The notes beneath the pieces were generated by a model, which saw only the letters and a program-made list of their open reading frames with translations, did no database searches and had not been told where the DNA came from. From assembly GCA_017624495.1 (NCBI GenBank), contig JAGAMY010000009.1, forward strand, positions 1 through 38,844: 38,844 nt of DNA, read 5' to 3'. Every line of letters starts with the position of its first letter. The first letter of the stretch is position 1. Shown here in pieces: positions 13,618 to 38,844 of this stretch. The DNA is from Lachnospiraceae bacterium (lineage in GTDB: Bacteria > Bacillota > Clostridia > Lachnospirales > Lachnospiraceae). The translations under genes and the position numbers were made by a program.

Positions 13618-13640
13618 CTGTAAACGGTTTTGACAAAAAA

Positions 13641-13670: not shown

Positions 13671-13675
13671 CTTTT

Positions 13676-14278
13676 CTACTTCCCTGTATCCTGCAAATAT
13701 TTCGCCCGAATACGCTGTATGGCATTATCAATCGCCTTAGGCGTTTTTCCTGTCTTTTCCGCAATCTGGCGGTAATTAAAGCCCTCCAGCATGTAGTCAA
13801 AGACCTGCTTTTCCATTTTACTTAAACATTTCGAAACATCCTGCAGTTTCTGGGATATATTTTCTCTGTTAATAAGCATATATTCCGGGTTTTCATCATT
13901 TTCTCCGGCAAGTACATCCGCTAATACCATACCATCTTCTCTTGTATCATCATAGAGCGAAACATAAGAATTTAATGGTGCATGTTTTTTTCTCTGTGAA
14001 GCTTCAACCGCCGTATACATTTGTCTGGTAATACATAATTCTGCAAAATGATAAAATGATGTTTCTTTATCTGCGTTATAATCTCGGATGGCTTTAAATA
14101 ACCCAATCATTCCCTCCTGAATTAAATCGTCTGTATCACCGCCAATTAAGTATAATGCATTGGCATTTTTACGAACCAGGGGCTTATATTTATCCAAAAT
14201 ATACTCCATGATTCCTTCTTCGTTCTGATTTACCCTTATAATCAGTTCTTCATCCGAAGAGCCTGTATAATCTGCCAT
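13676..14278 (-). CDS. sigH: RNA polymerase sporulation sigma factor SigH
   Basis: The 200-residue protein starts at 14278 (MADYTGSSDEELIIRVNQNE), behind GGAGG. It has sigma70 region 2 (YKPLVRKNANALYLIGGDTDDLIQEGMIGLFKAIRDYN in overlapping parts, including the core-binding DLIQEGMIGLFKAI) and region 4 with a helix-turn-helix (GFNYRQIAEKTGKTPKAIDN). Its size and text match SigH (Spo0H), which drives early sporulation genes. It follows rlmB at 41 nt. In Bacillus the rae1 (yacP) gene lies between these two; here it is absent from this site. It is the last gene before the terminator at 13641-13670. Confidence 0.93.
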   Translation of the reverse strand: MADYTGSSDEELIIRVNQNEEGIMEYILDKYKPLVRKNANALYLIGGDTDDLIQEGMIGLFKAIRDYNADKETSFYHFAELCITRQMYTAVEASQRKKHAPLNSYVSLYDDTREDGMVLADVLAGENDENPEYMLINRENISQKLQDVSKCLSKMEKQVFDYMLEGFNYRQIAEKTGKTPKAIDNAIQRIRAKYLQDTGK

Positions 14279-14319
14279 TCTCTCCTCCCATACATTTTTC
14301 CTCTGCATATGTGTATAAA

Positions 14320-15060
14320 TTATATACCCCGCTGGCGTAAAATCTCATATGCAAGTACACCTGTTGCCACAGAAGCGTTTAGAGAATCAATATCTCCCTT
14401 CATCGGTATAGAAGCAATAAAATCACAATTTTCCTTTACCAGCTTAGAAACGCCTTCGCCTTCATTTCCGACAACAAGTCCTATCGGTCCTTTTAAATCC
14501 AAATCATACATCGTCGTTCCACCCATATCGGCACAGACAAACCAAAGACCTTCTTCTTTTAACTCTTTGATTGTAGTTGTAAGATTCGTAACCTTTGCTA
14601 CCGGTGTATAATTAATTGCTCCTGCAGAAGTTCTTGCAACAGTTCCCGTCAAGCCTACAGCTCTGCGCTTAGGAATAATCACTCCATGAGCCCCTGCAAG
14701 ATTGGCTGTACGAATAATTGCACCTAAATTGTGTGGGTCTTCAATATTATCTAATAAAATGATAAATGGTGGCTCACCTTTATCCTTTGCATTCTGCAAA
14801 ATGTCTTCCACTGTGGCATAATCATAGGCTGCTGCCATGGCAATTACACCCTGATGCTTCTTTGTCTCTGAAAGCTGATCTAAACGCTCTTTTGCCACAA
14901 AATTTACAATGGTATCATGCTTTCTTGCTTCACGCATAATGGTCTGTATAGGACCATCTTTACAACCATCTAAAACAAACAGCTTATCAATTGGTTTACC
15001 TGAACGAAATGCTTCTAACACGGCATTTCTTCCTTCTATTTTTAATTCTTCGTAATTCAT
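14320..15060 (-). CDS. rlmB: 23S rRNA 2'-O-ribose methyltransferase RlmB
   Basis: The 246-residue protein starts at 15060 (MNYEELKIEGRNAVLEAFRS), behind CTGGAGGAAAAT. It has the N-terminal substrate-binding domain and the SPOUT methyltransferase domain, with the motif series LLDNIEDPHNLGAIIRTANL, IPKRRAVGLTGTVARTSAGA, LVVGNEGEGVSKLV and IPMKGDIDSLNASVATGVL. The enzyme methylates the ribose of a conserved guanosine in the 23S rRNA P loop (G2251 in E. coli). It lies between mrnC and sigH in the conserved order. Confidence 0.95.
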   Translation of the reverse strand: MNYEELKIEGRNAVLEAFRSGKPIDKLFVLDGCKDGPIQTIMREARKHDTIVNFVAKERLDQLSETKKHQGVIAMAAAYDYATVEDILQNAKDKGEPPFIILLDNIEDPHNLGAIIRTANLAGAHGVIIPKRRAVGLTGTVARTSAGAINYTPVAKVTNLTTTIKELKEEGLWFVCADMGGTTMYDLDLKGPIGLVVGNEGEGVSKLVKENCDFIASIPMKGDIDSLNASVATGVLAYEILRQRGI

Positions 15061-15088
15061 ATTTTCCTCCAGCAGCGTATTCCTCACG

Positions 15089-15523
15089 CTATACCTTCTG
15101 ATTGATTGCGGATAATCCTTCTTTTACCAGAAAAAGAATCCGTTCAAACTTATCGGACAGATATAAATATCCCATCAAAGCTTCAAATCCTGTAGCTTTA
15201 CGGTAATCTGCCATAGTTGCATTTTTTGCCATGGTTGGGGATTTTGCGTTTCTTCCCCTGCGGTAAATATCACATTCCTCTTCTGTGAGCAGCGGCAATA
15301 GTTTTTCAATCATTTCCGCCTGTGTATGTGCTTTTACAATACGACTTGTCTTGCGATGCAGCTCATTTGCCCTTGTATTTCCCCGTCCTACCACAATAGA
15401 ACGAATAACCAGGTCAAAAATCCCATCTCCGATATATGCAAGGGTAAGAGGTGAATATGTCCGAATATCCACCTCTCCTAAATCAAATTGTTCCCGGATA
15501 TATGCATCTATGCCCTTTTCCAT
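15089..15523 (-). CDS. mrnC: Mini-ribonuclease III
   Basis: The 144-residue protein has the RNase III catalytic domain without a double-stranded-RNA-binding domain, as in MrnC. The signature is [20 protein letters not shown], with [20 protein letters not shown] and the second acidic motif [13 protein letters not shown]. The family matures the ends of 23S rRNA in Bacillus. The start overlaps the end of cysS by 16 nt, implying translational coupling. Confidence 0.94.
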
Positions 15524-16914
15524 TGTACACCTTCTCTGGTATCTTTTAAGATAATTCCCTTTTCAAGCAGTAAATCACGAATTTCATCCGCTCTGGCAAA
15601 ATTTTTCTCTTTTCTTGCAGCCTGACGCTCTTCAATTAAGCTTTCAATTTCTGCATCTAAAATTTCTTCTTCTTTTTCGATAACAATACCAAGTACATCA
15701 CATAATGTCTTCATGTTTGCATATAATCCATCTAAATATGCACTGGTATTTTCTGCGGATGCATTGGTATTCATGAATTTTACCAGTTCAAATACTGCGG
15801 AAATAGCATCTGCTGTATTAAAATCATCATCCATGGCAGCTTCAAACTTCGCTGTATACGCTTTGCTTTCTTCTAATAATGCTGCTTCTGCATCTGTCAT
15901 TTCTACTGTGGCTGCTGCTTTCTGTAAATGTCTGATGTTTTCTGCGGCAGTAACAATTCTTTCCAGACCATTCTTTGCAGCCTCCATTAAATCTGCGCTA
16001 AAGTTTAGTGGACTTCTGTAATGGGCACTTAACATAAAGAAACGAAGTACCTGAAGGTCGTATTTTTCACCAATTTCACGAACGGTAAAGAAATTTCCGG
16101 CAGATTTGGACATTTTCTTATTATCAATATTTAAAAATGCATTGTGCAGCCAGTATTTGGAAAATTCTACACCATTTGCAGCCTCACTCTGGGCAATTTC
16201 ATTTTCGTGATGTGGGAAAACTAAGTCCTCTCCACCTGCATGAATGTCAATTTCATCTCCAAGATATTTTTTAGACATTACGGAACACTCAATATGCCAG
16301 CCCGGACGACCATCGCACCATGGGGATTCCCAGTATGGTTCACCATCTTTTTTTGGTTTCCAGAGTACGAAGTCTAAGGCATCTTCCTTTAACTCACCGG
16401 TAACTTTGATATCTCTGTGTCCAGCCTGTAAATCATCGATGTTTTTATGGGAAAGTTTACCGTAATCTTTGAATTTACGGGTTCTAAAATACACTGTTCC
16501 ATCTGTTGCCGGATATGCATAGCCTTTTTCAATCAGCTTTGCAATCATCTCAATCATACCATCAATTTCCTGTGTAGCTAGCGGATGTGTGGTTGCCGGC
16601 TTTACATTCATATCTGACATATCTTTTTTACATTCTGCAATAAAACGCTGTGAAACTTCTTCAGCAGAAGTTCCTTCTTCAATGGCTTTTTTAATGATTT
16701 TATCATCCACATCGGTAAAATTAGATACATAATTTACATCATAGCCTTTATACTCCATGTAACGTCTTACGGTATCAAATACAATCATTGGTCTTGCATT
16801 TCCAATGTGAATATAATTGTATACCGTAGGTCCGCAGACATACATTTTTACTTTTCCTTCTTCTAAGGGAATAAACTCTTCTTTCTTTTTGGTAAGGGTA
16901 TTATACAGCTTCAT
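15508..16914 (-). CDS. cysS: Cysteine--tRNA ligase
   Basis: The 468-residue class I synthetase is of normal size. It shows the HIGH motif (YIHIGNARP), zinc-binding residues (CGPTVYN, then CSVM and [10 protein letters not shown]) and KMSKS ([12 protein letters not shown]). It charges tRNA-Cys. Its start overlaps the cysE end by 14 nt, so cysE and cysS form a coupled pair under the cysteine T-box upstream. Confidence 0.96.
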
Positions 16915-17590
16915 CCTTTTGTGTCCTTTCTTTTTCTAATTCTTTTATTTGGTTTTCTAAATCTATCAGTCTGTTACATAGTACCGTATTTACACGCTGC
17001 AATGCGGTAATATCCTCTTTGACAGGGTCCGGTAAATGAATCTGATCCATATCACTTCTTGGCACTTTCTGATTATCACGTTTAACAATTCGTCCCGGTA
17101 CACCCACCACCGTACAATTCGGCGGCACTTCCTCAAGCACCACGCTTCCGGCTCCGATTTTGGAATTTTCACCGATAGTAAACGAACCGATAATCTTTGC
17201 GCCCGCACTAACCATAACATTATCACAAAGGGTCGGATGACGTTTGCCGGATTCTTTTCCGGTTCCGCCTAAAGTCACCCCCTGATACAGTGTCACATTG
17301 TCACCTATGATGGTGGTTTCTCCTATAATTACGCCACTGCCATGGTCGATGAAAAAGCCTTTGCCAATAACGGCTCCGGGATGGATTTCGATTCCGGTTT
17401 TTCGTGCCGCTTTCTGGGATATTAGTCTTGCCCAGAAAAAGTGACCTTTTTCGTATAGTTTATGGGCTCTGCGATAACTAAGCATAACACGGAAGGATGG
17501 GTATAAGAGTACTTCCATTGCCGATTTTATGGCAGGGTCCCGTTCTTTAATTACCTGAAATTCTTCTTTGATACGTCCTATAAAACCCAT
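16901..17590 (-). CDS. cysE: Serine O-acetyltransferase
   Basis: The 229-residue protein starts at 17590 ([20 protein letters not shown]), behind AAAGGAAAAC. Upstream in-frame codons fall in the leader terminator. It has the hexapeptide-repeat beta helix of CysE, with the active-site stretch [20 protein letters not shown] and [18 protein letters not shown]. It acetylates serine as the first step of cysteine synthesis. The 45 or so C-terminal residues are a charged coiled coil. It is the first gene of the operon and is regulated by the T-box leader. Confidence 0.95.
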
Positions 17591-17608
17591 AGTTTTCCTT
17601 TCTAAACG

Positions 17609-17643
17609 AAAAAAAACTTCATCTCTGCTCAAGAGACGAAGTT
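17609..17643 (-). terminator. Leader terminator of the T-box
   Basis: On the minus strand AACTTCGTCTCT pairs with AGAGATGAAGTT across a 5-nt loop, followed by a T run of eight. It stands between the T-box sequence and cysE and would stop transcription when tRNA-Cys is charged. Confidence 0.85.
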
Positions 17644-17898
17644 ATCCGCTGTTCCACTCTTATAAAACAATCTGCTTTCACCTGTAAAACTGCCTGTGAC
17701 AGTTCTTTTGGCTGCATGGCAACATAAAAATGCTTAACGTGCATAATCCGTATCTGACTACTTGCAATCTGCTTTCACCAAATCAGCTCCCGGAGGCACT
17801 TCAAAAATCTTGTGTAAAACTGCTTACAGCCGGTGACAGTTTCTCTCTTGACAACAGCGGACTTCCTACTCTTTCCGTTCTTTGCTTTTTACTTATCT
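17609..17898 (-). promoter_or_regulatory. T-box (tRNA-Cys) leader of the cysE-cysS operon
   Basis: The roughly 290-nt leader ends in a T-box-like stretch GAGTGGAACAGCGG (17659-17646). Its UGGA would pair with the UCCA end of tRNA-Cys, whose discriminator base is U. A terminator follows at once. T-box control of cysE-cysS by uncharged tRNA-Cys is well known in Firmicutes. Two candidate TGC specifiers are visible (minus strand, at 17798-17796 after GAAG, and at 17766-17764); I cannot tell which is right. The leader contains a duplicated piece: the 15-mer CAATCTGCTTTCACC occurs exactly twice on the plus strand (17668-17682 and 17765-17779). Confidence 0.8.
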
Positions 17899-24200: not shown

Positions 24201-24303
24201 TGGTTAATACGGAATCTGCCATGGCACCACCAACTTCCCATGAAAGTTCGCCTGCCGGATTAGTCTGAATACCAAAATATCTGTTGTTATTGGTATCCGT
24301 CAC
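21250..24303 (-). CDS. Downstream part of the TAG-interrupted GH53 galactanase gene
   Basis: This 1017-residue frame is in the same frame as the 24409-28320 gene. Only one TAG and 35 intervening sense codons separate them, so it is the C-terminal part of one 2356-codon gene. The GTG at 24303 has no convincing ribosome site. In order it holds: the second half of a concanavalin-like domain (to about residue 110); bacterial Ig-like (Big_2) domains; a FIVAR helical module (about 335-400, FALETAIATAKAAKTEADDYY); another Big_2; an F5/8 type C-like domain (about 490-640, LNVLENGGTGWVGVTLMQVNG); a Big_4-type domain; an Asp/Lys-rich linker (DTDKDSDADKDADTDKNPDA); and a C-terminal fibronectin-III-like, Lys-rich domain that may bind the cell wall. 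Confidence 0.8.
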   Translation of the reverse strand: MTDTNNNRYFGIQTNPAGELSWEVGGAMADSVLTNAVSLGKDFTGKEVWYHLHIVIDMEEEKTSFTITNKENSAITATGEAEFDSALSYAGDVAAIQFVGTRASGLNLSWNPALDNINIYKTALEAKEINVNKETVKLIPIKDTLGTKYQLTAQVLPEGVSQEVIWESLDTSLVTVDENGLITPVVTYDSLSEIVTGSCTVKVSSASNPSVYKEITVNISNSPNASEFFFIKDEEGNYVYEMGEGASTVELETGEQKQYIPVLTGGDGDTDLADVKWESEDTSVVTIDAKTGELKAVGPGNAKVTLTVTLYTGNPLTGEIYFTVTGEALADTFALETAIATAKAAKTEADDYYTAESLTAYKKALEQAESDLASAIAEKWSSEKQSVLDKDVEDLNAAVEGLKQDDVLRAITIQELSGKVLVNKKVQLNAEIVPAAAKEKIYWTSSDTSVAVVSKTDGMLIPVGEGTVVITAKGANGKVSATKEITVTAKDTADLTSWYDTEGVTITGTNEARPATNAFINARTMNINAGNTAWTTGSATKVGEIRVDLGAKARIDNVVTSFWSQLKYTIDISEDGENWTTVMDHSKEAAGGISDNSETCTDTFPENIVTRHIRLNVLENGGTGWVGVTLMQVNGEYVLSEKIVSEVSCAPVIVAGADKLASDLPETVAITLKDGSSENVSVTWDEEALEKVTEADGNYTITGTVVVDGIAYNVNCSLTVDSSFVDKEGDADTDKDSDADKDADTDKNPDAGKLPDTDSGSVEKTDIQSAAVVLEQDVYEYDGTEKKPSVALTVNGAVVPADGYTVAYTDNIHAGTAAVTINGTGNYTGSVTKNFTISKSDDNICLENVSIEKAYNSKNFSLGAKTADGSKLTYKLNNKKVIKLVKDKVKALAIGKVTVTLTSAESADYLADTEKITVTITPKKVKITSVKSKKSGQAAVKWKKDAKANGYEITYAANKNFKKAKTVNVKSGKTVTKNLTKLSKGKNCYIKVRAYKTVKGKKIYGEYSAVKKVKVKK

Positions 24304-24408: not shown

Positions 24409-24411
24409 CTA
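24409..24411 (-). other. In-frame TAG codon interrupting the GH53 gene
   Basis: Reading the minus strand, the codons run AAG CGC AGT ATT TAG AAG AGA TTT GCA GAA, with no frame change. Translation beyond the TAG continues a sensible jelly-roll domain (NNKIVLDFDWNVGTFVGK). One base change could give CAG, AAG, GAG, TGG, TTG or TAC/TAT. TAG ends ordinary genes elsewhere in the window (for example at 10073-10075 and 33765-33767), so it is a real stop codon here. Confidence 0.9.
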
Positions 24412-27400
24412 AATACTGCGCTTTCCACTTCCGCCACCGCTGATTTGGAAAATATTTCCCGTTTCATCTGCGGCAACCGTTCCACCAAGTGCACCGCCGC
24501 CTAAAGAGCTGACCTTTGTTCCCCATGTATTTCCTACTTCAAGATTATCAAAACTTTCGCTTATGGATGGTACATAAATCTTTGTCTGGGCTTTAAATCC
24601 GCCTTCCTCTGTAGTTGCTGTAATTGTTGCCACACCACTGCTGACTGCTGTTACACGGCCAAGTGCATCTACAGTAGCTACATCCGGTGCATCAGATGTC
24701 CAGACTACTTCTGTATTTGTTGCTGTTTCCGGTTCTACTACCGCATTTAAGCGATATACTGGTGCATCCTCTGCCGGATTTTCCTCTGAAAAATAATCGG
24801 ATGCAAAATAATATTCCTCTGTATCAACCGTCATTCCTGTAACCGGAATGGCATCCTTTTGTACAGTTACTTCACAAGTTGCTGTAAATCCACCATTTTC
24901 TGTGGTTGCTGTAATGGTTACAGGTCCACCGATTGCAACGCCTGTAACTTCTCCTTTTTCATTTACAGAAACGATATTTTCATCCGCAGATGTCCATGAA
25001 ATATTCTTATTATCTGCATCTGCCGGAGAAATCAGAGCATTTATGGTCTTTGTAGAGCCAACCTGAATAGCCAGACTGCTCTTGCTTAATTCGATTCCTT
25101 CTACCTGAACCGGTAATACTTCTACTTCACACTCTGCATAAACTTCTGCATTGTCATCGGAAACAGCTTTAATGGTAGTTGTTCCCACACCTGTAGCTGT
25201 CACAAATCCTGTTTCATCCACCTTTGCAACGGATGCCTTTTCTGATACCCAGTTAATTAAGTAACGTGTTGTATTTTCCGGAGCTACTGTTGCAGAAAGC
25301 TGTTTGCTTCTTCCATAGCTTAAAGTAATTTTGCTATCGCTGATGGTTACACTTTCTGCAGCTACTTTATTACTGTTTAAAGTAAAGCTTACTGCGGCAT
25401 TGCCATCTGCGGATGCTGCTGTAATTGTTGTTGTTCCTGTTCCTTTTACATTTAACTGTACTTTTGTATTCTTTTCGGTTTCCTGACGCATTTCACCGTC
25501 CGGTGTCTGCCATGTTTCGCCTAAGAAAGAGGCAACTTCCGGATTGGAAGATGTATATACTACAGCCTTATTTGTTGCAGAATCAGGCAATTTTGCACTA
25601 AGCTGAACCTTATCAAACAAGGTCACTGTCTTTTCTGCATGATTTTCAATCTCTGCTCCATCTACAGTTAATGTAATATTTTCTGCTTTTTCCGCTTTTG
25701 TAACGGTTACATTTACTGTTGCTGTATAACCACCCTTTACAGAAGCTGTTACCGTTGTTGTACCTGCATTTACACCACATACAAATCCATCCTGTGTTAC
25801 CTTCGCAACAGAAGCATCTGCGGAAGTATACACAATATCACTGTCAGAAAGAATTTTATCCACTGGTGTAATGGTAGGCTGTAAACGTTCTTTTTTGCCT
25901 TCTGCAATGGTAATACTTTCCTTAGATAAGCTGATTCCTGTAGGCTCTGTCACCTCTACACTATATGTACCCGCATCTCTTAATGGTGTCTGCATGGTAT
26001 CTGCCTTATCCTTTGCACAGCCACGCATCAGATATGCATACATACTGTCCATCATATCTCCGGCTTTACCAGCCTGATTACTTCCCATTTCTTTAATGGA
26101 AGTATCACCGTTATTAAACATAATTCTGGCTGTTACATCCGCAGAACCGCCATCGGTAGAACCTGCTCCCGGAGTTGGAATCCAGTCTACTTCCCAGTAA
26201 TAAAAACCTCTGGTCTGACCATATGGATTTGGTGTATCCAACGCTGCCTGCATATAATCTAAAAGCCAGTTGTACTGACCATTGCCACTTGTATAGTAAT
26301 ACTGACTCTGTCCCATAGCTCCGGTCTGACTGTCAATTGTCGGATAATATCTTGTAAATGAGTAAGCCGTTTCTACATTTACATAATCCATATAACGCAT
26401 GGTTTCATTATTTAACATGGCATTTGTCATCAAAATAGTATTACCGGAAGAACGTCCGCCATATAAGGAAAGTGCTGCACCATCCATTTTTGCACCACTG
26501 GCAAGTATCTTTCCAAAAAATCCATCACTGTTAAACTGCGCCGGTGTATAACCATTATTGGAATGAATATAACCGCTGATACCCGGCATGGCATCTTCTG
26601 CTGCTTCATAAGAAGCCGCAATCAATTTTGCATGACCCTCTGATGTGGAACCGCTTCCTACCGGCCATACAATACCGCCATTCTGTTCATTACCATGCTT
26701 CACACCACATACATTTACATCATTATCTGCTAATGCTTTGATAAAATCATATACATAGTTATATACGATAGACTGCATATGCGCTAAATCCGTATTGCTG
26801 TAATTTCCTTCATAATCGGTATCTAACCATTCAATCGGTGTGAATGCTTTGGCATTACTCATCCATGTATCACTGTAATGGAAACTTGGAAGGTAACTCA
26901 TGCCAAGCTCTGTTGCACGTTTGCCAAGCTGCAGGGAATGTTCTTTGTCAAAATAGCCACCCTGAATCATTTTTAATTCTGCCTGACTGCCATCTTCCTT
27001 CATCCATGCGCCACTTGCCCAGTATTCGTCAATGTATACCGTTTTTAAAGAATCCGGATAATGTGCAGGTTCGCCTGCTTTTACAAAAATCATATTGGTA
27101 ATGGAATTCACACCATGGTTCGAAAGAATACGCAGACAATCCTGCTGTACACCATTGGCAAAGTACTTTCCATCTAAATCTTCAATCGCAGATAAGAAGG
27201 ATACATCTGCACCTCTTAAATAATTTTCATCCTGAATACGGAATATGTCAAAGTTGTCTACATAGGCATAATCTTCGCCATTTCCTGTCCAGTTATCTGC
27301 TAATTCTGTTCCTTCTGTTTTGTAAATCGTAACAGAATCTTTATAATTTTCGTCATAAATGGTATTTGCATAAATTTCTACTTCTTCATCCTCTGCTCCC

Positions 27401-28320
27401 GTAGTAAAGGTAAGTGTAATCAAAGAATATCCTTCCGTACCGGACGGCGCCTGACGAAGCACTGTACCATCTGTGGTTCTGACACCAATATTTACACGGT
27501 TACCTAAAGAAGTTCTTTCTACCATTTCTCCCATAACTGCCGGATTTCCTGCACTATCCTTACGATAGCTGCTGGTAACCTTTGTCGTTTCAAAGGTATC
27601 CTGATTGTCAACCTTTGCCCGCATGGTTACAGAATATCTGGTATTTGGCTCTACCGCAACCGTTTGTGCAATTTCACTGCCTGCGGAAAGCTTAATTGCT
27701 TTAGCACCTGTGTCTACATTCTCTGTATCCTCTGCTACTGTTCCTGTCTGTTCCCAATGGTTAAGTCCATCCTCAAAATCCCAGTTTGCAATGGTATTTG
27801 CATCTGCACTATCCAATGCCAGCTCCAGATTGTCCAGTTCTAAAGCGGTTGTTCCTGCTGTAATAGTAATCTGCATCTGTCCATTGTATACCAACACATT
27901 ACGATGACCCATTTGTGTCCATGTATCCGATTTCATGTATGTATCCAACAATGCAACCGAATCCGGTCCACCTGTCTGTGAGACAGTAATGTTGGCATTT
28001 TTGCCCGCTGTACCCTTCAACCATGCAGATAAAGTATAGCTACCCTGCTTAATATCTGTCAGCAACATTGTCATAGATGCTCCTGCTTCTAATTTTACGG
28101 ATTTACTTCCGCTTTGAACATTGTCTGAAACAACGGTCACTGTTCCGAATGTATCCCATCCTTCTAAATCATTTTCAAAATCAAAATTTGCTGTTTCACT
28201 GCCAGATACTGTTGCTGCTTTTGCGTCAACAGTTTTTCCTACAGAAAAATCACTCATGGTAAATACCATGGTTGCTGCAAGAAATGCAGATAACATTCTT
28301 GTCAGTTTTTTCCTTTTCAT
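24409..28320 (-). CDS. GH53 endo-beta-1,4-galactanase, multidomain, secreted (N-terminal part)
   Basis: The 1303-residue frame has a signal peptide (residues 1-35, ending VDAKA). Two related carbohydrate-binding-like jelly-roll domains follow (about 40-170 and 178-362, beginning NFDFENDLEGW and NWDFEDGLNHW). The GH53 catalytic domain spans about 367-785. The acid/base Glu545 is in KHGNEQNGGIVWP, the nucleophile Glu650 is in VNVETAYSF, and YYWEVDWIP is typical. Four or five Ig-like Big_2 repeats run from 793 to about 1240. The frame then stops inside a concanavalin-like domain at a TAG. GH53 enzymes cut beta-1,4-galactan of pectin. The catalytic part is complete, so a truncated active enzyme could be secreted, but without the C-terminal domains that may hold it at the surface. 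The promoter carries a LacI-type operator. Confidence 0.9.
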   Translation of the reverse strand: MKRKKLTRMLSAFLAATMVFTMSDFSVGKTVDAKAATVSGSETANFDFENDLEGWDTFGTVTVVSDNVQSGSKSVKLEAGASMTMLLTDIKQGSYTLSAWLKGTAGKNANITVSQTGGPDSVALLDTYMKSDTWTQMGHRNVLVYNGQMQITITAGTTALELDNLELALDSADANTIANWDFEDGLNHWEQTGTVAEDTENVDTGAKAIKLSAGSEIAQTVAVEPNTRYSVTMRAKVDNQDTFETTKVTSSYRKDSAGNPAVMGEMVERTSLGNRVNIGVRTTDGTVLRQAPSGTEGYSLITLTFTTGAEDEEVEIYANTIYDENYKDSVTIYKTEGTELADNWTGNGEDYAYVDNFDIFRIQDENYLRGADVSFLSAIEDLDGKYFANGVQQDCLRILSNHGVNSITNMIFVKAGEPAHYPDSLKTVYIDEYWASGAWMKEDGSQAELKMIQGGYFDKEHSLQLGKRATELGMSYLPSFHYSDTWMSNAKAFTPIEWLDTDYEGNYSNTDLAHMQSIVYNYVYDFIKALADNDVNVCGVKHGNEQNGGIVWPVGSGSTSEGHAKLIAASYEAAEDAMPGISGYIHSNNGYTPAQFNSDGFFGKILASGAKMDGAALSLYGGRSSGNTILMTNAMLNNETMRYMDYVNVETAYSFTRYYPTIDSQTGAMGQSQYYYTSGNGQYNWLLDYMQAALDTPNPYGQTRGFYYWEVDWIPTPGAGSTDGGSADVTARIMFNNGDTSIKEMGSNQAGKAGDMMDSMYAYLMRGCAKDKADTMQTPLRDAGTYSVEVTEPTGISLSKESITIAEGKKERLQPTITPVDKILSDSDIVYTSADASVAKVTQDGFVCGVNAGTTTVTASVKGGYTATVNVTVTKAEKAENITLTVDGAEIENHAEKTVTLFDKVQLSAKLPDSATNKAVVYTSSNPEVASFLGETWQTPDGEMRQETEKNTKVQLNVKGTGTTTITAASADGNAAVSFTLNSNKVAAESVTISDSKITLSYGRSKQLSATVAPENTTRYLINWVSEKASVAKVDETGFVTATGVGTTTIKAVSDDNAEVYAECEVEVLPVQVEGIELSKSSLAIQVGSTKTINALISPADADNKNISWTSADENIVSVNEKGEVTGVAIGGPVTITATTENGGFTATCEVTVQKDAIPVTGMTVDTEEYYFASDYFSEENPAEDAPVYRLNAVVEPETATNTEVVWTSDAPDVATVDALGRVTAVSSGVATITATTEEGGFKAQTKIYVPSISESFDNLEVGNTWGTKVSSLGGGALGGTVAADETGNIFQISGGGSGKRSI

Positions 28321-29432: not shown

Positions 29433-31073
29433 CTATTCTATAGATACCACCGTACAGATACCACTTTCTGCCATTTCGTATGCAAAGGAAATGTTATCTC
29501 CCTTTTCATATTTCACAATTTCTACTAATGTGCTGTCTGCCACATTGACATCAAATATCTCTTCTGACTGCTCTAAACATACATAATAATGGGTATTTCC
29601 TTCAATAACTACGGGTGCAATTGAAGCAATTTTCCCTTCTGCCTTCTCATAAATCCCTGTCCGTTCACTTTTGCTGATACCATTGGTAACTAAAAGCTTC
29701 ACATAGGACTTTTCACATTCCTGCACGGTATCACCAATGGCAACCCACTGGTATTTCTGTACATTTACCATGGCATATTTTTTAACCAGACCTGCGCCAT
29801 CCTTTAATGCCATAAAATAGGTCGGCTCACCGGAAATATTCAAAAGCAGCGGGAAGGTTGCCTGATAACCAAGGTTCTGCACCTGACCTTCTGCGGAGGA
29901 CATGGCAGAATCCTCAATGGCACCTTCTACCGTATAAAACTTTGTCTCCATGGTACGCTGATTCATGAGTACAAAACCTACATTTGACTGGTCTCCACTA
30001 ACAGAGGTCACTCCGGTATACACCCACACATCATCATCCAATGCAATATAATTATAGCCATTGGTCGCCTGTAAACAGTCCTTCTGTCCTAAAATACTGT
30101 TAAAATAGCCATGCTTTAATGTTCCATGATAATTGTAAAGCTGTGTCAAAAGTTCTGCAGAATATACCTTATCAACCCAGCTTGGAATATTCTCCACAGC
30201 ATATTCTTCACATTCTCCGGTAACGGCATTACAAAGTATGGCTTTTCCTACGGTCTGACCGCCAAATAAACCAATATTAAACTTCTTCACCGGGCAAACC
30301 CAGTATGGTGTACCATCATCCTTGATTTCAAAGAAAATCTGGTCATCAAAAATATACGTCGGATAGTTAAAACGCAGATGTCTGTAAATATTGCGATTAA
30401 AGTATTCAGACTTTGAATAACGGATTTCATCTGCTAATTTCACACATTCCGTATCCTGTGTCGTCATATCAATCATGATATATGCCGGAATACCTTCACT
30501 CTGATTTGTCAGCCATTTAATACCGCTGGCATAGACTAACGGTGTCACACGCACGGGCTTATCATTATAGTTTATCTGGGTATAATCACTTCCCACTTCA
30601 AACTGGGAAACCATATCCACCATACTTCCCATCTTACGGTTTCCTAAAAGCTCGGCAGAACTTTTGTCTAAAAGCGGAATACTGTTATAGCTGACTTCCT
30701 TAATATCTCGGGAAAAATCACCACTTTCCACCTTAAGAAGCTGCTGATATTTTGCGGCATTGATAATCGGGGAAGATAACAAACTTCCACCAATGTAGAC
30801 AACAATCAAAACTAACAGTAATGCCACCCATGCTTTTAACAGCTTGGATTTTTTCAGCAGATTTTTTACATCCATATTTTTACCATAAAGGTCATATTCC
30901 TTTTTGGCTTTTACTGCCAGACACAAAAGCCAGCCCACACCCACAATAAAAAACAACGCCATCCAGAAGCCATTGGCATGAATATTTATGGCAGGCAGTG
31001 TAATATAATAGTAAATAAATAATGCCAATACAACAGCAATAAGTAAAAATAGCTTGCTCATTACTTTTTTCAT
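29433..31073 (-). CDS. Membrane protein of unknown function
   Basis: The 546-residue protein has three membrane segments in its first 120 residues (KLFLLIAVVLALFIYYYITL, FWMALFFIVGVGWLLCLAV and WVALLLVLIVVYIGGSLL). A large, probably extracytoplasmic region of about 420 residues follows, rich in aromatic and beta-type sequence, with no motif I recognise. Repeated YxxxD-type strands suggest a beta-rich sensor or propeller-like domain. Its ATG overlaps the TGA of the preceding GTPase gene by 4 nt, so the two are translationally coupled and probably work together. Confidence 0.75.
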   Translation of the reverse strand: MKKVMSKLFLLIAVVLALFIYYYITLPAINIHANGFWMALFFIVGVGWLLCLAVKAKKEYDLYGKNMDVKNLLKKSKLLKAWVALLLVLIVVYIGGSLLSSPIINAAKYQQLLKVESGDFSRDIKEVSYNSIPLLDKSSAELLGNRKMGSMVDMVSQFEVGSDYTQINYNDKPVRVTPLVYASGIKWLTNQSEGIPAYIMIDMTTQDTECVKLADEIRYSKSEYFNRNIYRHLRFNYPTYIFDDQIFFEIKDDGTPYWVCPVKKFNIGLFGGQTVGKAILCNAVTGECEEYAVENIPSWVDKVYSAELLTQLYNYHGTLKHGYFNSILGQKDCLQATNGYNYIALDDDVWVYTGVTSVSGDQSNVGFVLMNQRTMETKFYTVEGAIEDSAMSSAEGQVQNLGYQATFPLLLNISGEPTYFMALKDGAGLVKKYAMVNVQKYQWVAIGDTVQECEKSYVKLLVTNGISKSERTGIYEKAEGKIASIAPVVIEGNTHYYVCLEQSEEIFDVNVADSTLVEIVKYEKGDNISFAYEMAESGICTVVSIE

Positions 31074-33760
31074 TTTACATTCTCCTCTCTCTTTCCATTT
31101 TCCAAAATCCAGTCTGCAACCTCTTTTGACACATCATCCAACAGATATTTTTTACCATTATCTGTAGTTTTATGTTCTTCTAACAGCCGCTTTGTGGATA
31201 CTTTAATTTCCTGCTCTAATTCCCTTGCCGATAAAAGCAGACACCCCTGTCCTCTAATGATAATCTGCTCTAAGCCATCCGAGGTTGCCACGGTAATCTT
31301 ATATTTTTTGCTGTTCTCATGGGCAAATTTCTCAATATACGCATCAGCGGTTTCCGCTTCCTTTGTATATACCACATGAATATTATGATAATCAAAAATC
31401 TCTGTTTTATGTCCTGCCACACGGTAAGCATCGAAAACCACAATGACCTGACATTTTTTCATCCCCTGATAATTACAGAGAATATCCAATAATTTCCCCT
31501 TTGCACCATCCATATTGACATCGGAAAGCTCTTTTAAATCTTTCCACGCAAAAATGATGTTGTAACCATCTACTAAAAGATATTCTTCTTTGGGCTCTGC
31601 TTTTTTCGCCGGGGCACGATACGTCGTTTCCGGTGCAGCCGATATACGTCTTGTACTCATATACTGCTTTTTCGGCTGGGATTTATCCCTTTTGTTGGCA
31701 TTATAGGTTTTGGCTAAAATATCATCCACTTCTTCAACTGCGAGCCATTCCTCCTGTGTATAAGTACTTTTTGCTATCGTTTCATTTGCCAGTTCCCTGC
31801 TGTCTTTTGCACCTTTTAAACAACTTTCCACATGCATATTTTCCTTGACCTTGTCCCATTCCACCAGATACCCTGCACCATGGGCACAAAATACAGACCC
31901 CGTCGGATTCGCCAAATCACGTTCAGAATCATATCCTATTTCTGCTATGACTTCCTCTGCATTATGACAGGGGTAATATCCACCATAACTTAAAAACAAG
32001 TGCCCTTCTCCTCTGGTATAGGCAGTCACTTCCCTTGCATATTCCTGCATCGTAGCAACGGGTGCTAAGCCTTTTAAAACTGTACATTCTTCGTTATGGA
32101 AAGGTCCTTCCATGGTTCCCTGCATTTTTTCAATATCGGTCATGGCTCTGCCCACCATGTTTTCCGGAATTTCCAATGTATATTTATACCATGGTTCTAA
32201 AAGCACGGATTCTGCTTCTTTTAACCCCTGCCGCACGGCACGATAAGTCGCCTGACGAAAATCTCCGCCCTCTGTATGCTTTAAATGTGCTCTGCCACCC
32301 ACAAGGGTAATTTTCATATCCGTAATGACAGAACCCGTCAGCACACCAATATGCTCCTTTTCCTGTAAGTGCGTCAAAATCAATCGCTGCCAGTTTTTAT
32401 CCAGCACATCTTCACTACAATCTGCTGCAAATACCATTCCGCTTCCTGCTTCTAAGGGTTCTAACAGCAGATGGGCTTCTGCATAATGACGCAGCGGTTC
32501 AAAATGCCCAACGCCTTCTACCACATTTTTTATGGTTTCTTTATATACAATCTTTCCTGTTCCAAAAGTCACATCCAGTCCAAAACGGTCGGCAATCTGA
32601 CGCTTTAGTACTTCTATCTGGACTTCACCCATGACCTGTACCAAAATCTCCTGATGCACTTCATTCCAGACAATGTGCAGCTCCGGTTCTTCTTCTTCTA
32701 ACTGCCGTAATTTTGGCAATACCTGCGGTGCATCATAGCCCTGTGGTAAAATAATCTGATAGGTTAAAACCGGCTCTAATACCGGCATATGCTCTCCCTC
32801 TTCACACCCAAGTCCTTCTCCGGCTTCTGTCTGTGTAAGACCTGTAACTGCACAGATTTCTCCTGCAGATACTTCATCCGTTGTCTTAAATTTTTCACCG
32901 GAATAAATACGAATCTGATTCACCTTTTCTTCCCAGGCACGTTCCTCTGACTCTGTGTGTCCGCTTAAAATATCCCGAACCTTTAATTTCCCACCGGTAA
33001 TCTTCAAATGGGTCAACCGGTTTCCCTGAGCATCTCTGGAAATTTTAAATACTCTTGCCCCAAACGCCTTTGGGTATTCTTTTTCTATCGTATACTTGCT
33101 AATTCCCTGCAAAAGTTCTTCCACGCCAGTCATTTTCAGTGCTGAACCAAAATAGACAGGAAACAGCTTTCTTACCTGTATCAATTTTTGTAACTGTTCT
33201 TCTGTCAGAACACCATTTTCCAAAAAATACTCTAAGGCATCTTCATCACACATTGCCGCATTTTCATAAAATGCTTCTGTCTGTTCCTCATCAAATGCCA
33301 CACAATTATCGGATAACTCCTGCTTTATCTCTTCTAGCAGTTTCGTTCTGTCTGTTCCATTTTGATCCATTTTATTCACAAACAAAAATACCGGTACATG
33401 ATAACGCTGCAAAAGACTCCATAATGTTCGTGTATGTCCCTGCACACCATCAGCTCCACTGATAACTAAAACCGCATAATCAAGCACCTGTAAAGTACGC
33501 TCCATTTCTGCGGAAAAATCCACATGTCCCGGTGTGTCTAACAACGTAATATTCAATTCCGGCAGTTCTATTACTGCCTGTTTGGAAAAAATGGTAATTC
33601 CTCTTTCACGCTCTAATACATCTGTGTCTAAAAACGTGTCCTGTTTATCTACTCTTCCTATCTTGCGAAGCATTCCGCCTGTATAGAGCAAGCCCTCCGA
33701 TAGTGTAGTTTTTCCTGCATCAACGTGGGCTAAAAGAGCCGCACAACAATTCCGTTTCAT
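31070..33760 (-). CDS. TetM-like ribosomal-protection-type GTPase fused to a YacP/Rae1-type NYN endonuclease
   Basis: The 896-residue protein has an N-terminal translation-factor GTPase closely resembling TetM/TetO: G1 AHVDAGKTTL (11-20), G2 RERGITI, G3 DTPGH (75-79), G4 NKMD (129-132). EF-G-like domains II-V follow, to about residue 660. A linker of about 60 residues rich in Lys, Ala and Pro follows. Residues 727-853 are a NYN/PIN nuclease of the YacP (Rae1) family, with the acidic residues in LLVDGYNIIFAW (Asp731), VVFDAYRV (Asp777), KEAETADAYIEKFA (Asp806) and VATSDGLEQ (Asp828). TetM-like proteins bind the ribosomal A site; Rae1 of Bacillus cuts mRNA there. The fusion suggests a ribosome-docked mRNA endonuclease. 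It may be annotated as tetracycline resistance, but the domain IV loop text differs from TetM, so resistance is unproven. Confidence 0.9.
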   Translation of the reverse strand: MKRNCCAALLAHVDAGKTTLSEGLLYTGGMLRKIGRVDKQDTFLDTDVLERERGITIFSKQAVIELPELNITLLDTPGHVDFSAEMERTLQVLDYAVLVISGADGVQGHTRTLWSLLQRYHVPVFLFVNKMDQNGTDRTKLLEEIKQELSDNCVAFDEEQTEAFYENAAMCDEDALEYFLENGVLTEEQLQKLIQVRKLFPVYFGSALKMTGVEELLQGISKYTIEKEYPKAFGARVFKISRDAQGNRLTHLKITGGKLKVRDILSGHTESEERAWEEKVNQIRIYSGEKFKTTDEVSAGEICAVTGLTQTEAGEGLGCEEGEHMPVLEPVLTYQIILPQGYDAPQVLPKLRQLEEEEPELHIVWNEVHQEILVQVMGEVQIEVLKRQIADRFGLDVTFGTGKIVYKETIKNVVEGVGHFEPLRHYAEAHLLLEPLEAGSGMVFAADCSEDVLDKNWQRLILTHLQEKEHIGVLTGSVITDMKITLVGGRAHLKHTEGGDFRQATYRAVRQGLKEAESVLLEPWYKYTLEIPENMVGRAMTDIEKMQGTMEGPFHNEECTVLKGLAPVATMQEYAREVTAYTRGEGHLFLSYGGYYPCHNAEEVIAEIGYDSERDLANPTGSVFCAHGAGYLVEWDKVKENMHVESCLKGAKDSRELANETIAKSTYTQEEWLAVEEVDDILAKTYNANKRDKSQPKKQYMSTRRISAAPETTYRAPAKKAEPKEEYLLVDGYNIIFAWKDLKELSDVNMDGAKGKLLDILCNYQGMKKCQVIVVFDAYRVAGHKTEIFDYHNIHVVYTKEAETADAYIEKFAHENSKKYKITVATSDGLEQIIIRGQGCLLLSARELEQEIKVSTKRLLEEHKTTDNGKKYLLDDVSKEVADWILENGKREENVK

Positions 33761-33764
33761 TTAT

Positions 33765-35810
33765 CTAATCCTGCTTTTTTACATATTTTTCTTCAAACTG
33801 TGATGCGCTCATTGGCTCATCATAATAAAATCCCTGAATCTGCTGTATCTTCATGCGTGAAAGCACTTCATACTGTTCTCTTTCCTCTACACCTTCCACG
33901 CAAACGGTTACACCAATGGTAGCTGCCAGCTCTGCCACCATTTTAACAAAAGACTCTGAAAATTCGTCTTTTCCAATATCCTGAACAAAACATCTGTCAA
34001 TCTTAATAATATCAAGCGGCATTTCCCGAATATGATTTAAAGAAGAATAACCGGTTCCAAAATCGTCCATAGCCACCCTTACGCCTAAATCTTTAATCTG
34101 CCCTAAAATCTGTTTCATTCTGCCCATATCGTTTACCGCAAGACTTTCCGTTACTTCCAATACCAGATTTTCAGGACATATGCGGAATTCGCGAATAACC
34201 TTTTCCACTTTTGTTACAATGTCATTTTGCAAAAGCTGTACAACAGATAAATTTACATTTACCTGATAATTCGGATGTCCCATATCATTCCAGCGTTTCA
34301 GATATTTGCAAGACTCCATCAATACGAACTCACCAATGGGATTAATAAGCCCTAAATATTCTGCCAGCGGAATAAATTCAGCCGGTGATACAAAACCCAT
34401 ACCATCTAGTTTCCAGCGGATAAGAGCCTCTGCTCCCTGACAGCAGCCATCCACGCCCATAATAGGCTGAAAAAATACTTCAAACTCTCTGCCTGCATCT
34501 CTCGCCGCATCACGCATTTTTTTGCCCAAATCCAAACGTTTAAAGGAAATGGATTCCACTGCATCATTGTAATATTCAATACGGTTTTTACCTGTTTTTT
34601 TCGCCTCATATAATGCAATATCTGCTTTTTTTATCAGCTCATCCACCGTATTTCCATCCTCCGGAAAACGGGCTACTCCCATACTCATCGTACAATAATA
34701 GTCTGCTCCCTTTAAGAACCACGGTTTGGTAAAAATGCTGCAAATATCATCTAAAATCGTTTTTAGCATATTAAACTGCGCATGCGGGACAATGATAATA
34801 AACTCATCTCCACCCATGCGGTAACAGGTATTTTCAATACCGGATACTCTCTGTAAACTGTGGGAAATAGAACGAAGCAGTGCATCTCCATACTGATGTC
34901 CCAATCCATCATTAATATGCTTAAAATCGTCCAAATCAATATATAAAAGAGCACCCTGACCGCCGAATTCCTTGGTCTGCTTTATAAAATGCTCTAAATC
35001 CTGTTCACAGCGCATACGGTTGTACAAACCGGTCAGAAAATCATTATTTATCTGTCTTTCAATTTTCTGCTGATAATTCTTTTTGTCAGTAACTTCATAG
35101 ATTGTATATAAAGTCACTTTTCTACCGTCCACCCACTGAATAGAGGAGTTATAGATATCAAACCAGCGATTATTTTCATTCACAAAAAATTCTGTATGTC
35201 CACAACCGCTTTGCAGCAAATTTTCCAACTCATTATTTGTAGTATTTCCCCGGAAATGCCTGCGATAATATTCATTTGTATACAAACATTTCTGATTGAG
35301 TGAATCATACACAAAAATTCCACAGCCAACATTTTCTATAATTGCCTCTAATGAAGCATATGAACCTGCCAGCGAATTTTGGACAATACGTTTCGCCAGT
35401 GCACTCTGTACAATAAGACGTACGGTTTCTAAAAAAGTACGGTATTCTTCCCGGTATTCCGGTAAAAGCGCATCAAAAAATGCCATATGCATACTTACCC
35501 GGCCATTTATTGCAATAGGAAGATATACATCTTCTTTTTCGTTTATATACGTCCTTTCAAATGCTTCAACGACTGCTTCTTCTTCATAAACCTTATCACA
35601 TATTCCATATTGGGAAAGAATTTTCCACTTATCCCCTTTCAGCTCTTTTTGCCGCAGTACAGCACTCTGAAAATGCAACTTCTTACATATACAGCTTAAT
35701 ATACCTTCTGTAACTGCCACAAAATCCTTATCTTCATCAAGTATCCCGACAATATCTGCCATTACTTCACTGTATTTTATCTCCAGCCCTATCTTCTCTT
35801 CAAATGACAT
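33765..35810 (-). CDS. GGDEF-EAL cyclic-di-GMP protein with GAF-like and PAS domains
   Basis: The 681-residue protein is soluble. Residues about 1-140 look GAF-like and 150-245 PAS-like (AIIENVGCGIFVYDSLNQ). The GGDEF motif (333-337, YRMGGDEFIIIVPHA) is intact but lacks the RxxD inhibitory site. The EAL domain (QGAEALIRWKLDG, 461-463) is followed by VNLSVVQL, LEVTESLAV, MDDFGTGYSSL, IDRCFVQDI and CVEGVEEREQ, so the phosphodiesterase metal and catalytic residues look complete. It probably makes, breaks or senses c-di-GMP in response to a small-molecule signal. It starts 2 nt after the methyltransferase gene stops and ends 4 nt before the GTPase gene. Confidence 0.93.
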   Translation of the reverse strand: MSFEEKIGLEIKYSEVMADIVGILDEDKDFVAVTEGILSCICKKLHFQSAVLRQKELKGDKWKILSQYGICDKVYEEEAVVEAFERTYINEKEDVYLPIAINGRVSMHMAFFDALLPEYREEYRTFLETVRLIVQSALAKRIVQNSLAGSYASLEAIIENVGCGIFVYDSLNQKCLYTNEYYRRHFRGNTTNNELENLLQSGCGHTEFFVNENNRWFDIYNSSIQWVDGRKVTLYTIYEVTDKKNYQQKIERQINNDFLTGLYNRMRCEQDLEHFIKQTKEFGGQGALLYIDLDDFKHINDGLGHQYGDALLRSISHSLQRVSGIENTCYRMGGDEFIIIVPHAQFNMLKTILDDICSIFTKPWFLKGADYYCTMSMGVARFPEDGNTVDELIKKADIALYEAKKTGKNRIEYYNDAVESISFKRLDLGKKMRDAARDAGREFEVFFQPIMGVDGCCQGAEALIRWKLDGMGFVSPAEFIPLAEYLGLINPIGEFVLMESCKYLKRWNDMGHPNYQVNVNLSVVQLLQNDIVTKVEKVIREFRICPENLVLEVTESLAVNDMGRMKQILGQIKDLGVRVAMDDFGTGYSSLNHIREMPLDIIKIDRCFVQDIGKDEFSESFVKMVAELAATIGVTVCVEGVEEREQYEVLSRMKIQQIQGFYYDEPMSASQFEEKYVKKQD

Positions 35811-35812: not shown

Positions 35813-37315
35813 CTATTTCTCCCTTAGTCCAATTATATATAATACAAATTTATCCTTCTCTCGAATCACAAACTCCTGTTTCAGACGCAATTTCGGATGT
35901 AAACGAAGCTGTTTTTTTATAAAACCATCTTCATTTGCATACAAGATAATATTTCCTTCCGGTGCTAACAATTCTAAGGATTTAGTGAAAAATCCTGCAT
36001 AGAAATTATCCTGTTCTTCCTTTGTCTTTTTTCCCCTTACTGGCATATTTGCTATAATCTCATCAAACAAATACTTATGTTTAAAATCCAGATAATCCTT
36101 ATGGATAAAATTCACACGCACATTCGCTGCTTCACAGTTTGTCTTTGCTTTTTCTATTGCATCCCCAAAAATATCTATTCCATAAATTTCTCGTGCCGGC
36201 AAAATCTTATGTCGCTCTACAAGCATAGTGCCTACGCCACAGCATGGATCTAAAATCTGTGCATTTTCTTTTAAATATGGTTTTGCCAGATGCATAAGCA
36301 TGGCAGCAGACGATGGATGCATAGATGCAGCTATGGACGCTTTACGGTAAGCAAAGCGTTCCATCTCCATCGTATTCATTTTTAAAAATGTCCGAATTTC
36401 ACCTTCTTTATTTGAAAGAATCCGAATTTCCACTTCATATTCATCCGTAGAATTAAGCAACATCCTGTCACTGCCTTCTTCTATGGCACATGCTGCCTTT
36501 TTTGTATAACGGCTTCTTTCCTCTAAAGTCATACCACTTCGCATTTCTAAACGGAAATAGAACGGTGAATCTTCTTTATGGCATTTTTTTAATAGCGGAA
36601 GAATATTTGAATCTGCCAATGCTTTTCCCAAAACTTCCGGCTTATCTTTTACTGTAATCGTCTGTCCTAATTTAATCGGAAACAGCAGTTCACGAAAAGT
36701 CCGAATCTGTGTCACTGCCCGCAAATCATCCACGCATGCCCGCACACCTAATGCGGTAAGACCAATACGATATGCCAGATGCTTTTCCTGCAATTCTTCC
36801 GCAGTAATTTCCCTATATTTAGGATTTGTCGTCAAAATGACCGTAACTTTTTCCTTCCATCCAATAAAAGTATGTCCTTTGTCCGGTCCTTCTTTTCTTA
36901 ATATTTTTTCTATTGCCCGCAATTCTTCCTGAATATGTTTCTTTTCATTCTCTTTGGGTACAACTGTACACAATTCCGTATATCTTTCCTGCAATTCACT
37001 CAGATAAGGATAAGCATTTGTTTTTTCCAATGCTAAAAGCAGTGTACTTTTAACAAACATAGTTTCTTCATTTTTATATGCCAAAAATATTGCTTCTGCT
37101 GCGTTTTCCATTTGCAAATCCCCTAAAAGTGCTGCTACATTCTTACGCACCTTGGGATCTGTATCCTGTAAAAAAGGAAGTAAAATTTCACCTTCACCGA
37201 TTAGCTTACGAAATTTTTCTAATTTTTCCGGCTCTTTGATTCCTGCACGAAGGCCGCTTAATGCCGCACGCACTTCTTTTTTTTCTTTTAACTGATTAAA
37301 AAAAGTTTCTATCAT
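35813..37315 (-). CDS. HEAT-repeat-like protein fused to a Trm14/RlmL-type RNA methyltransferase
   Basis: The 500-residue protein starts at 37315 behind AAGGGTAAGGAT. Residues 1-110 look like HEAT-type helical repeats (GEILLPFLQDTDPKVRKNVAALLG). Residues about 150-330 are of uncertain fold, in the place of a THUMP-type RNA-binding region. The C-terminal SAM domain has motif I DPCCGVGTMLVE (356-367), the acidic loop IYGIDIFGDAIEKA and motif IV NMPVR (423-427), a variant of the N-x-P-[FYV] motif of N2-methylguanosine enzymes such as Trm14/TrmN and RlmL. It probably methylates a base of tRNA or rRNA; the target is not known. It heads the five-gene operon. Confidence 0.85.
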   Translation of the reverse strand: MIETFFNQLKEKKEVRAALSGLRAGIKEPEKLEKFRKLIGEGEILLPFLQDTDPKVRKNVAALLGDLQMENAAEAIFLAYKNEETMFVKSTLLLALEKTNAYPYLSELQERYTELCTVVPKENEKKHIQEELRAIEKILRKEGPDKGHTFIGWKEKVTVILTTNPKYREITAEELQEKHLAYRIGLTALGVRACVDDLRAVTQIRTFRELLFPIKLGQTITVKDKPEVLGKALADSNILPLLKKCHKEDSPFYFRLEMRSGMTLEERSRYTKKAACAIEEGSDRMLLNSTDEYEVEIRILSNKEGEIRTFLKMNTMEMERFAYRKASIAASMHPSSAAMLMHLAKPYLKENAQILDPCCGVGTMLVERHKILPAREIYGIDIFGDAIEKAKTNCEAANVRVNFIHKDYLDFKHKYLFDEIIANMPVRGKKTKEEQDNFYAGFFTKSLELLAPEGNIILYANEDGFIKKQLRLHPKLRLKQEFVIREKDKFVLYIIGLREK

Positions 37316-38593: not shown

Positions 38594-38595
38594 AG

Positions 38596-38669
38596 TAGCG
38601 GAAGGGAGATTTGAACTCTCGACACCACGGGTATGAACCGTGTGCTCTAGCCAACTGAGCTATTCCGCC
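38596..38669 (-). tRNA. tRNA-Met (anticodon CAT)
   Basis: The 74-nt gene reads GGCGGAATAGCTCAGTTGGC from its 5' end. The anticodon stem CACGG/CCGTG holds the loop TTCATAC (anticodon CAT). The acceptor has a G1-T72 wobble and discriminator A, and the T arm is GAGAG/CTCTC-like. It resembles the elongator tRNA-Met of other Firmicutes rather than the initiator. CCA is not encoded. It is the last gene of the rRNA operon. Confidence 0.95.
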
Positions 38670-38742: not shown

Positions 38743-38844
38743 ATTGGTCAAGCCCTCGACCGATTAGTAACAGTCAGCTACATACATTACTGCACTTCCA
38801 CCTCTGCCATATCTACCTTGTAGTCTTCAAGGGGTCTTACAATC
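38743..38844 (-). rRNA. 23S rRNA, 3' end (partial)
   Basis: The minus strand reads GATTGTAAGACCCCTTGAAG at the window edge and continues to GTCGAGGGCTTGACC, the standard 3' end of Firmicute 23S rRNA. The end near 38743 is approximate. The rest of the gene lies beyond the window. The downstream spacer holds a GAAACAG/CTGTTTC hairpin but no 5S gene. Confidence 0.93.

Follow-up and report, generated by a model that had tools for sequence, protein, structure and literature searches.

A Rae1-type nuclease on the tail of a translational GTPase may replace free-standing Rae1 in Lachnospiraceae and other Clostridia

Rae1 (YacP) of Bacillus subtilis cuts mRNA in a translation-dependent manner, and the portions of the literature that describe this activity place the cut, as is thought, in the ribosomal A site (PMC6613710, PMC10100781, PMC12320835); for the way in which Rae1 picks the right ribosomes and gets into their A site, those accounts have a model and not a settled answer. 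RelE-family ribosome-dependent mRNA interferases likewise cut mRNA in the A site, and tmRNA rescue of an internally stalled ribosome is said to need an A-site endonuclease cut (both from passages of PMC12320835). A Tet-NYN fusion has been described in ten species of Clostridiales, and the sections devoted to it took the fusion as a possible resistance protein or rRNA RNase, without connecting it with Rae1 or with the disappearance of rae1 (Atkinson 2015, BMC Genomics 16:78, PMC4342817). Here we analyze a 38,844-nucleotide contig of a Lachnospiraceae bacterium (JAGAMY010000009.1, assembly GCA_017624495.1; hereafter the window), which encodes a GTPase-NYN fusion identical in architecture to those clostridial proteins as they are outlined in that paper. 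The domain pair itself is already known, and what is new is that it replaces free-standing Rae1. The function of Rae1 was reportedly published by Leroy in 2017, later than the survey that described the fusion. We found no link of the fusion to Rae1 in the literature, although a survey of Rae1 distribution (Condon 2018) may contain one. Judging from the genomic evidence below, we favor the reading that these bacteria have their Rae1 in the fusion, where it forms the C-terminal part of a translational GTPase of its own.

The original prediction was of a TetM-like GTPase with all its G motifs, joined to a complete Rae1-type NYN domain at residues 727-853 with its acidic residues kept. The fusion is real: a single open reading frame (ORF) matches Pfam domains I-V and NYN_YacP, with the following layout.

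31070..33760 (-), GTPase-NYN fusion gene, an uninterrupted ORF with its ATG at 33760, 896 aa
33092..33739 (-), G domain with motifs G1-G4, residues 8-223 (PF00009 GTP_EFTU, E 1.7e-50)
32813..33061 (-), domain II, residues 234-316 (PF22042 EF-G_D2)
32561..32776 (-), domain III, residues 329-400 (PF14492 EFG_III)
32213..32557 (-), domain IV, residues 402-516 (PF03764 EFG_IV)
32255..32299 (-), domain IV tip loop GGRAHLKHTEGGDFR, residues 488-502, placed by alignment with TetM and different from ..SPVSTPADFR of TetM
31961..32206 (-), domain V, residues 519-600 (PF00679 EFG_C)
31823..31981 (-), C-terminal extension GYYPCHN...SVFCAHGAGYLVEW...MH, residues 594-646, placed by alignment and folded in the predicted model
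31583..31822 (-), linker, residues 647-726, mostly disordered (predicted local distance difference test, pLDDT, below 50 at 651-721)
31703..31735 (-), short low-confidence helix in the linker, residues 676-686, site of a recurring ELxxIFxRTYG motif
31115..31579 (-), Rae1/YacP-type NYN nuclease domain, residues 728-882 (NYN_YacP, E 2.4e-50)

Motif alignment recovered all four G motifs (AHVDAGKT, RGIT, DTPGH and NKMD), as predicted. The NYN domain is indeed complete, with an extent set by the Pfam match and not by the residues first given. The predicted structure of the whole protein has a predicted template modelling score (pTM) of 0.66, at which the packing of NYN on the GTPase could not be read.

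The nuclease part is that of Rae1. Its NYN_YacP match scores 171 bits against a Pfam cut-off of 24.6, it has the Rae1 fold, and among solved structures its sequence is nearest to B. subtilis Rae1/YacP (5mq8, E 4e-25). Residues D731, N734, D777, D806 and D828 are invariant in 112 of 112 fused domains and in 26 other NYN ORFs, 24 of them truly free-standing; we take the four aspartates (D731, D777, D806, D828) to be the catalytic acidic residues of Rae1/YacP. The acidic residues are therefore kept throughout, and no fusion with ruined aspartates was seen among the 112.

We sampled 200 genomes of the window's family, 292 of its class (window included) and 299 of its phylum. In the family, NYN_YacP was found in 180 of 200 genomes and a GTPase match at 1e-80 in 175, each of which also has NYN; five genomes have NYN without a GTPase match. 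Six of the 175 GTPases are an unfused sister with NYN elsewhere in the genome (that of G099 frame-broken), and the match in G068 is a Tet-like gene at 34%. A fused-type gene is thus present in about 168 of 200, a figure that includes a few genomes in which a contig edge or frame break falls at the join or the frame length was not seen (e.g. G072, G139), five of the family genomes being placed by elimination. In the class, where frame lengths were tallied by hand from match tables, the fused type occurs in 104 of 292 genomes and the unfused type in 18, one of these a fragment; NYN_YacP is present in 194. Besides the window, the frame reaches at least 789 aa in 99 of 103 fused-type class genomes; G432, G244, G362 and G393 have the parts at the end of a contig or separated by a frame break. 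In the phylum, a fused frame length (857-909 aa) was found in 18 of 299 genomes, 12 of them outside the class, and an unfused length in three. At least 587 stretches of named genomes encode some relative of the query. We kept 80, from Lachnospiraceae, Oscillospiraceae, Anaerovorax, Fusibacter, Ruminococcus and others; 79 have both parts in one frame, and 78 have them in a single frame of more than 820 aa (L179 has 807 aa, and L185 is split). Such recurrence, in well over 200 of the genomes sampled, rules out a chance join or an assembly chimaera.

A few copies depart from this pattern. In L042 (G042:C93) and L095 (G399) the fusion gene lies in two frames, and a sequencing error is indistinguishable from a real split. 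L111 (G178) and L096 (G407) are very divergent fusions, with GTPase parts at 26% and 39% identity and NYN catalytic residues kept.

The 104 fused-type class genomes yielded no NYN_YacP match over the cut-off besides the one in the fusion, and 90 of the other 188 class genomes have NYN_YacP. Sub-cut-off second matches occur in G321, G382 and G417, and the one we examined (G382, L238) is an AsnC-type regulator. The window's own genome, in an assembly 54.7% complete, has a single NYN_YacP, the fusion.

We then looked at the site that free rae1 occupies. The B. subtilis cluster around rae1 presumably comprises, besides rlmB, the genes cysS, mrnC and sigH. Of 24 free rae1 copies, 19 have rlmB no more than 5 kb upstream and 17 have sigH downstream, and rlmB (yacO) adjoins rae1 in B. 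subtilis, as stated in a passage of PMC6613710. Where it can be read, the fusion lies outside this cluster. The cluster is present in the window with its rae1 position empty:

15508..16914 (-), cysS, with which the ancestral rae1 cluster begins (TIGR00435, 599 bits, above cut-off)
15089..15523 (-), mrnC, mini-RNase III (PF00636; 58-59% to MrnC-type ORFs of related loci; no NCBIfam match)
14320..15087 (-), rlmB, 23S rRNA G2251 methyltransferase (TIGR00186, 249 bits, above cut-off)
14309..14319 (-), empty rae1 site, 11 bp from rlmB to the called sigH start
13676..14308 (-), sigH (NF006148, 203 bits, just below the cut-off of 208; 49-51% to SigH-type ORFs of related loci)

No NYN match above background was found in window positions 13501-17700 (best E 0.047), and the nuclease sits 17 kb from the empty site, in the fusion. 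The same-genus genome G143 (L194) is arranged likewise, with a gap of 45 bp between rlmB and sigH. More widely, we took the mrnC neighborhood from 57 fusion-type genomes; 25 had no rlmB-sigH pair in the stretch, and G444, which is not among the fusion genomes and had no pair either, was excluded from the 57. None of the 32 readable fusion genomes has an intact rae1 between rlmB and sigH, the two genes being spaced by -55 to 592 bp; for six phylum genomes in this test, the fusion was inferred from frame length alone.

At some of these sites a decayed rae1 can still be recognized. The relic at the site in G222 is clear (tblastn E 3e-18 to an intact same-genus Rae1) and has stops in each of the three forward frames; weaker ones, also with stops, lie in G298 (E 4e-6) and G276 (E 5e-5). 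Matches of E 6e-4 or weaker also occur inside rlmB and mark the background, so G362 (E 0.006) was not counted as a relic; nor was a 60-aa ORF in G339, which has a blastp match only. The genus g229 holds several stages side by side: G252 keeps an intact rae1 (L110) and has no GTPase match at 1e-85, G222 has the fusion and the relic, and G382, G321, G417 and G463 carry the fusion, with rae1 absent from the site. Such stages are expected if the fusion arrived and made free rae1 redundant. Together with the closeness of fused genes from many families in the GTPase tree, they suggest horizontal spread. The relation to Rae1 proposed in the original prediction thus holds in the nearest solved structure, in the single NYN_YacP of fused-type genomes and in an old rae1 site that, wherever it could be read, is empty or decayed, and these data suggest that the fusion replaced free-standing Rae1. 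That it supplies Rae1-type, ribosome-linked cleavage we consider likely.

The fused domain differs from free Rae1 at its C-terminus. An LEKxR-type motif ends 21 of 24 free Rae1 proteins and 7 of 112 fused ones (p 8e-16, kinship ignored), and is thus lacking in 105 fusions, the window protein among them; a looser tail pattern was found in 21 of 24 and 23 of 112, respectively. The domain ends no more than 12 residues from the start of the tail in 40 of 112 fused proteins and in none of 24 free ones. The last arginine of the motif is residue 166 of the B. subtilis Rae1 structure sequence, and R166P is an efp suppressor grouped with loss-of-function changes in rae1, in the part of PMC6613710 that lists it. 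Because some fused proteins retain the motif, the tail was probably lost after fusion. A ready reading is that the GTPase may have taken over docking from NYN.

We next asked what kind of GTPase carries the nuclease. Domains I-V of the window protein have the EF-G/EF-2 fold, with five EF-G-type domains and intact G motifs, and it is not EF-G itself by the equivalog profile TIGR00484 (290 bits against a cut-off of 659). TetM and TetO are EF-G-type five-domain GTPases too, and the passages of PMC4342817 on the fusion suggest a tetracycline (or other antibiotic) ribosomal-protection protein joined to an RNase. This idea is favored by the closest solved structure to the GTPase part by sequence, which is TetM (3j9y, E 6e-70, residues 8-597), and by an annotated plasmid copy of the fusion in Agathobacter rectalis (H52) labelled 'TetM/TetW/TetO/TetS family'. 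In the Tet family profile tet_protect (NF012153), however, the window protein scores 434 bits against a cut-off of 775, near two unfused GTPases (427-431) and below L069 (606), whereas the Tet protein L071 scores 892. The fusion is about 30-34% identical to TetM/TetO and has a different domain IV tip: an HTxGGDF-type tip is found in 107 of 112 fused and 16 of 16 unfused GTPases, and an SPxSTP-type tip in none of these 128. The exact KHTEGGDFR is found in 99 fused GTPases, including that of the window, and in 12 unfused ones; TetM carries YYSPVSTPADFR at this position, and the Tet protein L071 likewise has a tip of the SPxSTPADFR type. The tip of the divergent L111 is wholly different.

The extension at residues 594-646 (family consensus GYxPCHN..SVFCxHGAGF.V.W...MH), which TetM/TetO lack, is common to the fused and unfused GTPases of the family and not found in the outgroup rows L069-L071. 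In the GTPase tree, 34 fused rows form one clade (SH-aLRT 98) and 15 of 16 unfused rows another (SH-aLRT 97, with L064 outside it), and the outgroup, namely a Tet protein by score (L071) and the Tet-like L069 and L070, is separate (100); the tree was made by a quick method, contains one very long branch (L111) and leaves out the frame-broken fusion L042. The distribution also speaks against a resistance gene: the fusion is present in most family genomes, lies on a multi-megabase contig in G102, G191, G035 and G046, and reaches 80% coverage in no more than 2 of the 927 plasmid records that match. Family score, domain IV tip, tree position and distribution together led us to reject a tetracycline-resistance identity, which we regard as very improbable, and we do not file the window GTPase as a Tet protein. 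"TetM-like" therefore stands in the broad sense, TetM being the best match in the Protein Data Bank (PDB), and fails in the narrow one.

Ligilactobacillus salivarius plasmids of about 169-214 kb (H53-H58) encode a GTPase relative, about 50% identical over residues 3-662, that has no NYN match and is labelled TetM-family resistance, a label that its kinship makes doubtful.

The GTPase part has an unfused sister, a protein of about 650 aa ending ..MHC in other Clostridia and some family genomes, which has no NYN and is about 41-49% identical to the fusion, with the tip loop and C-terminal extension in common. Of the 18 class genomes with this sister, 7 (one of them with a fragment) have no NYN at all, so this GTPase has some function of its own. 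A coupling of the unfused GTPase to free rae1 was seen in the family sample (6 of 6 against 4 of 24, p 0.0004, kinship ignored) and not in the class sample (11 of 18 against 79 of 170, p 0.32), and we do not claim it.

A GTPase with its own ribosome job could serve as a passive tether that keeps the nuclease near, hydrolyzing GTP without control of cutting. The sister genomes without NYN fit this, as does the long disordered linker (54-140 aa, median 76.5, in 112 fusions), and the predicted model gave no legible interface between GTPase and NYN. Both active sites are kept, however, with the NYN residues in 112 of 112 fusions, DTPGH in 111 and NKxD in 109, and 75 of 112 linkers carry ELxxIFxRTYG by strict regular expression, which is beyond the needs of a bare tether; the motif may be a switch or docking site. 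We consider a passive tether unlikely.

The fusion could also be an enzyme of rRNA or tRNA maturation or of ribosome assembly, in which the GTPase checks pre-ribosomes and NYN trims rRNA. Against this, Rae1, the one studied member, is described as a translation-dependent mRNA cutter in the portions of the Rae1 papers cited above, the EF-G domain set and conserved domain IV tip are as expected for mature ribosomes, and both parts are missing in 20 of 200 family genomes, unlike an essential maturase. We therefore judge such a role unlikely.

Returning to a Rae1 built into a GTPase, a possible course of action follows from the parts. In EF-G-type factors it is domain IV that occupies the A site. 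This domain and NYN are thus both expected there and should act in turn, not together, a constraint that the original prediction leaves aside. The GTP-bound EF-G-like part would bind a stalled ribosome with an empty or poorly filled A site, and domain IV, with its KHTEGGDFR tip, would probe or clear that site. GTP hydrolysis would then pull domain IV out, and the tethered NYN would swing in on its linker and cut the A-site mRNA, so that the message could decay and the ribosome pass to tmRNA-type rescue; docking, which free Rae1 does for itself, would now fall to the tether. An extended peptide measures 3.4 Angstrom per residue, which gives the linkers a contour of about 180-480 Angstrom, and with a linker predicted to be long and disordered, reach to the A site should be no obstacle. 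GTP-driven delivery in this order is plausible at somewhat less than even chances. The full picture, a GTP-fuelled A-site nuclease that selects stalled ribosomes, times its cut by GTP hydrolysis, has spread in Clostridia, repeatedly displaced free rae1 and dropped the docking tail, we put forward tentatively. Compared with B. subtilis Rae1/YacP (PDB 5mq8/5mq9), such a factor is not free-standing and carries a GTPase and linker. The RelE-family interferases have an unrelated fold, a toxin-antitoxin context and no GTPase.

Several observations weigh against this interpretation. The 20 family genomes with neither part make the device dispensable, and NYN is missing in 15 of 164 well-assembled family genomes; the sister GTPase without NYN, noted above, belongs here as well. 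Replacement of rae1 points to a common function and does not say which RNA is cut. The relics rest on tblastn with free Rae1 queries: the Pfam NYN_YacP profile at E up to 1 listed neither the G222 nor the G276 relic and gave that of G298 an E of 0.019. In the NYN tree, which leaves out L042, L043 and L111, the fused domains are not all one clade (AU p 0.065, with the divergent L096 placed elsewhere), so that a second origin or a domain swap is possible. Lastly, a sequential step must be assumed, since domain IV and NYN share the A site.

No neighbor cluster is shared by more than 17 of the 112 fusion loci within 5 kb. Around the fusion, the window holds the following features.

33765-35810 (-), GGDEF-EAL gene, co-directional with the fusion and 4 bp upstream of it
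35813-37315 (-), methyltransferase with MTS/UPF0020 matches, a weak sub-cut-off HEAT match and an NMPVRGKK motif
29433-31073 (-), 546-aa protein with a hydrophobic N-terminus that overlaps the fusion stop codon by 4 bp
38595-38669 (-), tRNA-Met beside the 23S rRNA
38744-38844 (-), 3' end of a 23S rRNA gene, at the contig end

A methyltransferase of this type lies near the fusion in 3 of 112 loci (the window, L044 and L147), and the 546-aa protein has no Pfam or NCBIfam match. Further along, 24409-28320 and 21250-24303 (-) encode two large proteins that are probably exposed at the surface: one combines a GH53 glycosyl hydrolase domain with CBM4_9 and Big_2 repeats, and the other has F5/8-C and Big_2 domains. 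The fusion also occurs on two 'Bacteriophage sp.' records, MT835514.1 and MT835563.1 (L220, L221); the neighbors tested there are feoB, mraW, gltX and glpK in one record and dapF in the other, and we take both as bacterial contigs and reject a phage origin.

Because the fusion, present across a large share of the gut Clostridia, ties the GTPase and Rae1 activities together, it offers one purifiable protein for testing GTPase control of A-site cleavage. Some tetracycline-resistance labels, such as that of the H52 fusion, more likely denote core translation factors, which bears on resistome counts. If our interpretation is true, these bacteria would possess a type of ribosome-rescue factor whose GTP hydrolysis sets the moment at which mRNA is cut.

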